Shown here: positions 7,318 through 45,136 of the stretch, piece after piece | Layout of the letters: each line of letters begins with the position of its first letter | How positions within the stretch are numbered: position 1 is the stretch's first letter | NCBI GenBank assembly: GCA_947493265.1 | Contig: CANLQL010000004.1 | Span: 186,001-250,000 of the forward strand | Source of the DNA: an uncultured Litoreibacter sp. | GTDB taxonomy: Bacteria > Pseudomonadota > Alphaproteobacteria > Rhodobacterales > Rhodobacteraceae | Direction of reading: 5' to 3' | DNA length: 64,000 bases | Program-made: the position numbers and the translations under genes | The notes under the pieces: generated by a model | The model's input: the letters and a program-made list of their open reading frames with translations, nothing else | Told to the model about the DNA's origin: nothing | Database searches by the model: none

Positions 7318-7806
7318 ATGGCCGAGCCTTTTTTTGCCAAAACCGCTGATGATATTCTGACGCTGCCCGAAATTCTGGAGATGTCAGGGCTGGAATTTAT
7401 GCAGAAGATTCTGGAAGGGGAGATCCCGGCTCCACCAATATCAAGGACGCTAAACTTTAGGCTGGTCGAAGTCGCTGAAGGTCGTACGGTCTTTCAAGGC
7501 TCACCGCGATTTGAAGCCTTCAATCCGATCGGGACGGCGCATGGTGGATGGTACGGCACGATCCTAGATAGCGCGATGGCCTGCGCAGTCATGACGACGG
7601 TGCCAAAAGGGTCCGCTTACACGACGCTTGAGTACAAAGTGAACATTACCAGACCGATCCCGGAAGGGATGGAGGTCCGCGTAACAGGCGAGGTCGATCA
7701 TGCCGGAAGGTCAACCGGTGTTGCAAGCGGATGGATTCACGGGGTCGAGGATGGTAAACTTTATGCAACAGGATCAACAACTTGCTTGATCATGAAGCTT
7801 GCCTAG
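7318..7806 (+). CDS. PaaI-family hotdog thioesterase
   Basis: GTAHGGWYGTILDSAMACAV and EYKVNITRPIPEG hotdog-fold motifs. Confidence 0.8.
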   Translation: MAEPFFAKTADDILTLPEILEMSGLEFMQKILEGEIPAPPISRTLNFRLVEVAEGRTVFQGSPRFEAFNPIGTAHGGWYGTILDSAMACAVMTTVPKGSAYTTLEYKVNITRPIPEGMEVRVTGEVDHAGRSTGVASGWIHGVEDGKLYATGSTTCLIMKLA

Positions 7807-7875
7807 ATCACGGAGGCATCAAAAGCGCGTGACAGGTTCCCAACAACGCCTGCGCATCTGCGCACCTTATTCCCC

Positions 7876-7904
7876 CTGACATTTCCGGCCGGATTGTCTA
7901 TATA
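7876..7904 (+). promoter_or_regulatory. Sigma70-type promoter: -35 CTGACA, 17-nt spacer, -10 TATATA
   Basis: CTGACA (7876-7881), TTTCCGGCCGGATTGTC, TATATA (7899-7904), in a gap between convergent genes. Confidence 0.6.
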
Positions 7905-7910
7905 GGTCAT

Positions 7911-7977
7911 GTACTCCACTGCACGGCAGGGAGGCATGCAGGGCCGTTACGGGTCCACCCTTAGCGGCCCTGTTTTG
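7911..7977 (+). ncRNA. Candidate orphan small RNA (about 66 nt) ending in a hairpin plus U-tract
   Basis: Promoter directly upstream; CAGGGCCGTTACGGG-TCCA-CCCTTAGCGGCCCTG pairs over 15 positions (one C/T mismatch, one G.U), followed by TTTTG. Confidence 0.55.
7939..7976 (+). terminator. Rho-independent terminator-like hairpin
   Basis: Near-perfect stem 7939-7953/7958-7972, then TTTT. Confidence 0.6.
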
Positions 7978-7981
7978 TCTG

Positions 7982-8009
7982 GCGGGCGTTTCATTTTTGA
8001 AATGCCCGC
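7982..8009. repeat. 12-bp stem hairpin GCGGGCGTTTCA-TTTT-TGAAATGCCCGC
   Basis: Inverted repeat with one G.T wobble just downstream of the rraA-like gene stop; no clear U-tract on either strand. Confidence 0.6.
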
Positions 8010-8015
8010 TACAAA

Positions 8016-8717
8016 CTACTCCTCAATGAAATCCACCTGATCGCTGTCCAGAAGCTCCGCGATGCTGTCTGGAAGACCCAGACCGTTTGCGACCTCCGCA
8101 TCCAGATCGCCTTCGAGTTTTTTAACGGCGTCCAGCTTTTCAATGACGTGGTCGATTTTTTCAAATGGAACGACGACCACACCGTCTGTATCTGCCACAA
8201 TCATGTCACCTGTCGCGACTGTTTGACCGCCGATCTGCACGCGCAAGCCGACGCTGCCAGGACCGTTCGAAAATGGCGAGGCGGGGGTCAGACCCGTGCA
8301 CCAGACCGGAAGTCCAACATCGACGATACCGGCGTAGTCGCGCACGGGACCATCGGTCACGAACCCTGATGCGCCTTGGTTTTTCGTCATGCCTGTGACG
8401 CGGTCACCTGCGGCTGCACATCCTTGGAAACCGGCAAAAGACGCAATCACGATATCACCTGGCTGGATGTATTTCAGCGCTGCCAACGTACCAAGAATAT
8501 CGCCCGCGCTGTTACCAGCGGTTAGCGCCGGACCGGCGGCAACACACGGAATGTCGCGTCCTTCGCCCACAGGTTTGATATTGGCCGCGAGCGCGCCACC
8601 CCCCATCAACGCGTCAACGACAAATCCTGTCGGGATCCCCTGAAACGCATCGATCTGCGCTTTCGTCGGGCGTCGCATGGATTTGTTAATGGTCAGTAGT
8701 TTTGGCTCTTCGATCAT
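8016..8717 (-). CDS. RraA-family protein (4-hydroxy-4-methyl-2-oxoglutarate aldolase-like)
   Basis: GTLAALKYIQPGDIVIASFAGFQGCAAAGDRVTGMTKNQGASGFVTDGPVRDYAGI is the RraA-like core. Confidence 0.82.
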   Translation of the reverse strand: MIEEPKLLTINKSMRRPTKAQIDAFQGIPTGFVVDALMGGGALAANIKPVGEGRDIPCVAAGPALTAGNSAGDILGTLAALKYIQPGDIVIASFAGFQGCAAAGDRVTGMTKNQGASGFVTDGPVRDYAGIVDVGLPVWCTGLTPASPFSNGPGSVGLRVQIGGQTVATGDMIVADTDGVVVVPFEKIDHVIEKLDAVKKLEGDLDAEVANGLGLPDSIAELLDSDQVDFIEE

Positions 8718-8760
8718 CGAAACCTCCCAATTTCTGAAAACCCGGTCCGTAAGTCTGGCA

Positions 8761-9687
8761 CTATTTCCCGAGGCACCACCGCATGATGGCTTTCTGAGCG
8801 TGCAGACGGTTTTCCGCCTCATCAAAGATGACAGAGTTTTCGCCATCCATCACAGCGCTGGTCGCCTCATCATCCCGGTGGGCGGGAAGGCAATGCATGA
8901 ACAATGCGTCTGGTTTGGCATGGCTCATCAACTGTTCATTCACTTGGTAGCCACGTAGTTGGTTGTGGCGGCGTTCGCGTGCCGATTGCGGATCATGCAT
9001 CGACACCCAAGTATCTGTCACAACCAGATCAGCCCCCTCAACAGCCTTGGTTGCATCCCGCTCAATCTGAATATCTGATCCTTTGGCGCGGGCTTCGGCC
9101 ACAAATCCGGCCTCGGGGTCCAGTGTTTCTGGCCCCGTGAACGTCAAGTCGAACCCAAATTGTCCAGCTGCGTGGATGAAAGATGCGCAGACGTTGTTGC
9201 CATCGCCGCTCCAGACGACTTTCTTGCCTTTGATCGGACCGCGATGTTCCTCAAAGGTCATGATATCGGCCATGATCTGGCAAGGGTGTGTGCGGTCTGT
9301 CAGACCATTGATCACCGGCACCGTGGCGTATTGCGCCATCTCCAGCAGAGTGTCTTCCTCAAAGGTCCGCATCATGATCAGATCAACATAACGGGACAGA
9401 ACCCGCGCCGTGTCGGCAATCGTTTCGCCATGACCAAGCTGCATGTCAGAGCCGGACAGAACCATTGTCTGCCCCCCCATCTGACGCACACCGACATCGA
9501 ACGAAACGCGGGTCCGCGTTGACGGTTTTTCGAAAATCAGCGCGACCATGTGCCCGGCAAGTGGTGGGTCTTCGTCAAGCGCACCCTTCGGTTTACCGTT
9601 CCGAGCATCTTTTGCGACGCGGGCCTGATCGATGATCGACCTGAGGTCTTTTTTGTCCGTCTTGTGGATGTCTAAGAAGTGTTTCAC
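8761..9687 (-). CDS. argF: Ornithine carbamoyltransferase
   Basis: [38 protein letters not shown] motifs. Confidence 0.96.

Positions 9688-43444: not shown

Positions 43445-45136
<1,692 letters not shown>

Follow-up and report, generated by a model that had tools for sequence, protein, structure and literature searches.

A probable genus-restricted small RNA with an invariant 5' hairpin between a thioesterase gene and argF in Litoreibacter

The locus and its promoter

The window (the whole stretch of 64,000 nt of uncultured Litoreibacter DNA analysed here) contains the 209-bp gap reported in the preliminary description, which separates a 4HBT thioesterase gene, whose stop is at 7806, from a convergent rraA-like gene with its stop at 8016, with argF as the next conserved neighbour (Table 1). 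This setting is shared: argF is present in 21/21 genomes of the genus, and in those carrying the RNA described below, the thioesterase gene (often together with metF) lies upstream of the RNA and argF downstream. Between the two, a fasciclin-like gene, rraA and other genes vary among carriers, the gene names in the relatives' loci having been read off translations and tested against profiles for only some. The fasciclin-like gene, recognized by eye from its translation, is a minus-strand gene that many members of the genus have between the thioesterase gene and either the RNA or rraA (L002, L004, L006 and L008, where it is upstream of the core, and L103-L112); the window lacks it. Since it is present in some members and missing from others, the thioesterase-argF interval can be regarded as a hot spot for the gain and loss of genes.

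Table 1. Coordinates of the features at the locus, numbered from the first position of the window.
Feature	Position	Strand	Remark
4HBT thioesterase gene	7318..7806	+	Upstream flank, same strand as the RNA; Pfam PF03061, E 4e-12
Inverted repeat TGCGCATCTGCGCA	7851..7864	+	Candidate regulator site; relatives have GCGCA...TGCGC with a spacing of 2, 7 or 15
-35 element CTGACA	7876..7881	+	Sequence
-10 element TATATA	7899..7904	+	Sequence; TATNT counterpart in relatives
5' module GUACUCCACUGCACRGCAGGGAGGCA	7911..7936	+	Predicted start 7911; identity and fold in nine species
5' hairpin	7914-7922 with 7926-7933	+	Bulged A 7918, loop 7923-7925; alike in 9/9 predicted folds
GGGAGG, SD-like 3' arm of the 5' hairpin	7929..7934	+	Unpaired probability 0.00-0.06 (mean over nine species)
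Hairpin 1, TCCA loop	7939..7972	+	Likely intrinsic terminator stem; 96% of cells paired
TTTT	7973..7976	+	Predicted 3' end after hairpin 1; sequence
Hairpin 2, 12 bp	7982..8009	+	Either an optional 3' part of the RNA or the terminator of the convergent gene
rraA-like gene	8016..8720	-	Convergent flank; Pfam PF03737, E 6e-29
argF (ornithine carbamoyltransferase)	8761..9687	-	Conserved neighbour; Pfam PF00185/PF02729

The promoter proposed earlier for the plus strand of this gap is present as described, with a 17-nt spacer between its two hexamers, an arrangement that predicts a start at 7911. Among relatives the -35 box is weak and shows no conservation, and TATNT occurs at -12 to -8 from the conserved core in eight of the nine carriers (counted per column), being shifted in L002. 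At the level of sequence, a promoter of its own, as expected of a trans-encoded sRNA, is indicated by the constant distance at which 8/9 carriers have a -10 box ahead of the conserved 5' end. A simple promoter and terminator scan, uninformative alone here, called no promoter and returned terminators at shuffle level. Transcription would begin near 7911, from a promoter of the sigma-70 type, and would probably be assisted by a regulator bound at the inverted repeat further upstream.

Conservation among relatives points to the same start. A blastn search with 7800-8020 gave clear matches in eight further genomes of the genus, all starting at 7909-7911, and mean pairwise identity among the nine species is 0.98 over 7911-7936 (core positions 1-26) vs 0.35-0.41 over the 60 bp upstream of the core, the latter anchored without gaps. 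Given this step in identity and the TATNT fixed in 8/9, the conserved block begins at the predicted start. The RNA is shared by nine species, and the preliminary description, which a lack of conservation outside the strain would have contradicted, is not refuted.

Distribution in the genus and the paired 3' part

The nine sequences were used to build a covariance model, which gave nine strong matches, one per genome, in 21 genomes of the genus, the RNA being single-copy. An exact-pattern scan of named genomes placed it in Litoreibacter meonggei, L. ascidiaceicola, L. albidus and L. arenae, in an uncultured Litoreibacter and in a Paracoccaceae MAG, and it is by these named matches that the genus is called Litoreibacter. 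Across 298 family genomes (about 300 other genera of the family), the model gave just one weak, terminator-like match (G232), the core pattern with up to 3 mismatches had no match outside the genus among 395 Rhodobacterales genomes, and a viral collection, searched for a phage-borne RNA, held 0 exact core matches. A pattern match in Paenibacillus was discarded as being at chance level and failing to extend.

Within the genus, the RNA is absent from 12 of the 21 genomes, three of these assemblies being incomplete (57-82%); it is not essential, since more than half of the genomes lack it. In an unrooted tree of two proteins, ArgF and the thioesterase, the non-carriers G001 and G014 fall within a clade (support 99) that holds five carriers. 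Comparison of the non-carrier G001 (L101, 700-900) with L008 (G012) shows the upstream flank to be kept and the -10 box and the RNA to be missing, an apparent deletion. As G001 and G014 nest among carriers and G001 retains the upstream flank, loss of the RNA seems more likely than repeated gain. The nine carriers and their close non-carriers, including these apparent natural losses, would make a precise test object for the roles of lineage-specific sRNAs.

Both hairpins of the preliminary description, the stem with a TCCA loop followed by TTTT and the 12-bp hairpin behind it, are present in the window as it had them. Compensatory changes, which it had suggested seeking among relatives in the first stem, were found: the outer sequence and the loop of hairpin 1 vary while pairing persists, in 12 cells across the nine carriers both partners of a pair are altered, vs 4.3 such cells in shuffles, and the covariation score is 0.261 vs at most 0.100 when the alignment is slid, whereby pairing is lost; as the controls are based on nine related sequences, they should be taken as a guide and not as exact values. 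A counterpart of hairpin 2 occurs in 6/9 carriers, where the sequences differ and still pair through compensatory changes, and it is absent in three carriers in which rraA ends soon after hairpin 1. The 66 nt of 7911-7976 fold at -39.1 vs -22.3 kcal/mol in shuffles (z -5.95), the 102 nt of 7911-8012 at -64.4 vs -34.4 kcal/mol (z -8.15), in neither case with a shuffle as good, and all nine carrier sequences (9/9) share a predicted two-hairpin fold of the 5' hairpin and hairpin 1, with z from -3.6 to -6.6.

The transcript would end after hairpin 1, at about 66 nt, and read-through to hairpin 2 could extend it to about 100 nt. The length of 66 nt had been put forward with confidence and has to be relaxed: the T-run after hairpin 1 is replaced by other bases in several relatives, which makes the 3' end uncertain, and 6/9 carriers have a further covarying hairpin behind it. 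Hairpin 2 itself seems to go with the RNA locus, because most non-carriers lack a comparable hairpin after rraA; among the folded non-carriers, none of comparable strength was found, with one possible exception (L107).

The position of both hairpins between convergent genes, together with the lack of a plus-strand T-run after hairpin 2, would also suit a mere terminator region serving the minus-strand rraA-like or argF genes, in which case there would be no RNA of its own here. Such a reading is very improbable, as hairpin 2 has a T-run on neither strand and hairpin 1 has none on the minus strand, folded non-carriers (again with L107 as the possible exception) do not show a comparably strong hairpin after rraA, the structure persists at loci that have argF or a different gene in the convergent position, and the invariant 26-nt core starting just past the -10 box would be left unexplained. 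The comparative evidence therefore appears best explained, as first proposed, by a discrete small RNA that lies between genes and has a promoter of its own: conservation starts at the predicted start, the distance to the -10 box is kept and the hairpins pair despite sequence change. That this is a genuine sRNA is, on these grounds, highly probable.

The 5' module and its possible partners

Two domains are predicted for the RNA: at the 5' end a hairpin of 26 nt that is almost invariant, and behind it a 3' stem in which sequence varies while pairing is kept. The 5' hairpin, in which CUCC-A-CUGC pairs with GCAG-GGAG, is the most conserved part of the RNA and had been overlooked in the preliminary description. 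The GGGAGG segment noted there lies at the position given, but it is not a free seed ahead of the hairpin, as in all nine species it pairs with the 5' end, namely with CUCC (7914-7917) and with the G of GCAG. Neither the two arms nor the bulge vary, and almost the whole loop is constant as well, the ten pairs being invariant with zero covariation. Since both arms stay fixed while hairpin 1 drifts, the 5' module would be read as sequence, which suggests that it is held for its sequence as well as its shape. A 26-nt hairpin that hardly changes within a genus whose ArgF is only about 84% identical to that of the window would imply a strong constraint imposed by a partner.

The functional part would thus be the 5' module, and the most economical mechanism, and the most likely one, would be base pairing in trans once this modest hairpin (-11 kcal/mol) has been opened, with a chaperone if any takes part. 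The CUCC arm, anti-Shine-Dalgarno in character, would then block the ribosome sites of mRNAs; less likely, the SD-like GGGAGG arm would pair with CU-rich RNAs. Against trans pairing speaks the closure of both candidate seeds in the predicted fold. Perfect complementary matches in the nine carrier genomes (TGCCTCCCTGC, TGCAGTGGAGT) lay in unrelated genes, and among carriers no perfect 11-nt site near a start codon was recurrent. A stand-alone, Litoreibacter-restricted sRNA with its own promoter that acts in trans through the invariant 5' hairpin is nevertheless the reading that we hold to be reasonably probable.

The invariance of GGGAGG would also be expected of an RNA sponge whose SD-like GCAGGGAGGCAG arm binds sRNAs with anti-SD CCUCC(C) motifs. 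Duplex energies of -12.7 kcal/mol with an aR8-like motif and of -14.9 kcal/mol with a cuckoo-like motif would allow such binding, which has a precedent in CrfA and the aR8 sRNAs (PMC12559287). Nevertheless, sponging appears unlikely: opening the paired arm costs 11.4 kcal/mol in the predicted fold, leaving a small net gain, and comparable energies would come from any similar purine-rich stretch.

The fixed arms, bulge and nearly whole loop, and the absence of covariation in the ten pairs, would equally suit recognition of a folded shape together with its sequence, i.e., a protein-binding or RNA-stabilizing element by which the RNA titrates or guides a protein instead of pairing. This is a distinctly unlikely reading, for which there is no candidate protein, and base-pairing sRNAs keep their seed regions likewise. 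A switchable, dual-function sRNA, whose CUCC and GGGAGG arms are locked on each other in one hairpin, seems quite improbable; if it were true, opening of the hairpin would expose a seed that blocks translation and, at the same time, a sponge for anti-SD sRNAs.

Known RNAs and candidate regulators

No known RNA family could be assigned in the preliminary description, and a covariance search of 4227 Rfam families agrees, as no family was matched at gathering score and the only two hits below that threshold, up to E 10, are attributable to chance. The literature searched held nothing on Litoreibacter sRNAs or on argF-linked sRNAs. It is very likely, judging from sequence comparison, that the RNA is an undescribed, genus-restricted regulatory RNA, and it would add a new sRNA family, found from sequence alone with comparative backing, to those of marine Rhodobacterales.

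Cuckoo/CcsR RNAs of Rhodobacterales are small, have two hairpins and carry a loop motif of the CCUCCUCCC type. The Litoreibacter RNA resembles them in being small with two hairpins in the same order, and differs in that no CCUCCUCCC-type loop motif occurs on the plus strand of its alignment and in that its locus, unlike theirs, is not beside a DUF1127 gene. Intergenic sRNAs defined by RNA-seq, many of them lineage-specific, have been described in Ruegeria pomeroyi and Paracoccus denitrificans, which belong to the same order (PMC4809877, PMC5107571); argF is not mentioned in the main text of either paper.

Among alphaproteobacterial sRNAs, CrfA of Caulobacter crescentus is a sponge that sequesters the aR8 sRNAs SisA-D via their anti-SD-signature 10-mer (PMC12559287). 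The SD-like GGGAGG of the Litoreibacter RNA could likewise pair with an anti-SD motif; however, it lies inside a hairpin, and the RNA has no Rfam match. The aR8 family (MmgR of Sinorhizobium, SisA-D of Caulobacter) shares with the present RNA its being a short alphaproteobacterial sRNA, whereas what is conserved here, in single copy, is a GGGAGG/CUCC hairpin and not the anti-SD 10-mer. Taking CCUCCC as the motif of that 10-mer, none is found on the plus strand of 7911-8012.

The gene for MmgR is a reported target of PhaR, whose site in Rhodobacter sphaeroides is CTGCNNNGCAG (PMC12542648). PhaR occurs in Litoreibacter, and the CTGCACRGCAG invariant in the nine species would, by comparison with the R. 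sphaeroides-type site, allow the conserved stretch to be mainly a DNA element, with CTGC-N3-GCAG as a PhaR operator just past the start site. This is extremely unlikely. On a PhaR matrix made from sites of the pha region of the same genus, the core site scores 3-5, and all but one of the 32 distinct pha-region sites score 17.5-28; 24-54 places in the 64-kb window score equally; moreover, 26 nt are fixed rather than 11, and hairpin 1 covaries. A PhaR operator at the RNA promoter is accordingly rejected by the genus-specific matrix despite the invariant CTGC-N3-GCAG and the mmgR precedent, and, unlike mmgR, the Litoreibacter RNA has no genus-type operator that could be found. Sites of the PhaR type, CTGC-R-N-Y-GCAG with AT-rich flanks, do occur in the pha region of the genus (L138, L154-L173; phaP and phaR leaders).

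The inverted repeat upstream of the promoter remains the candidate regulator site. GCGCA-N0-20-TGCGC lies within -90 to -30 in 7/9 carriers vs 0.011/9 in shuffles, a contrast inflated by the relatedness of the carriers and the mononucleotide shuffling. The N15 form is common to four carriers, which probably have it by descent, so that the count overstates independence. With regard to a regulon, exact matches to the 25-bp consensus were seen in four genomes, in each case at the promoter of the RNA itself and nowhere else.

Elsewhere in the window, TGCGCAATAATATTTCACAAATGCGCA at 43988-44014 shares the GCGCA-N15-TGCGC arrangement of the repeat of the four relatives and lies between a divergent Lrp/AsnC-family regulator gene (43445-43945, minus strand) and trxB (plus strand), and the element is near-identical in G011. 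It is the 1 perfect match in the window vs 0.31 expected, which is weak evidence. The Lrp/AsnC-family regulator beside trxB is, as a lead only, a possible controller of the RNA.
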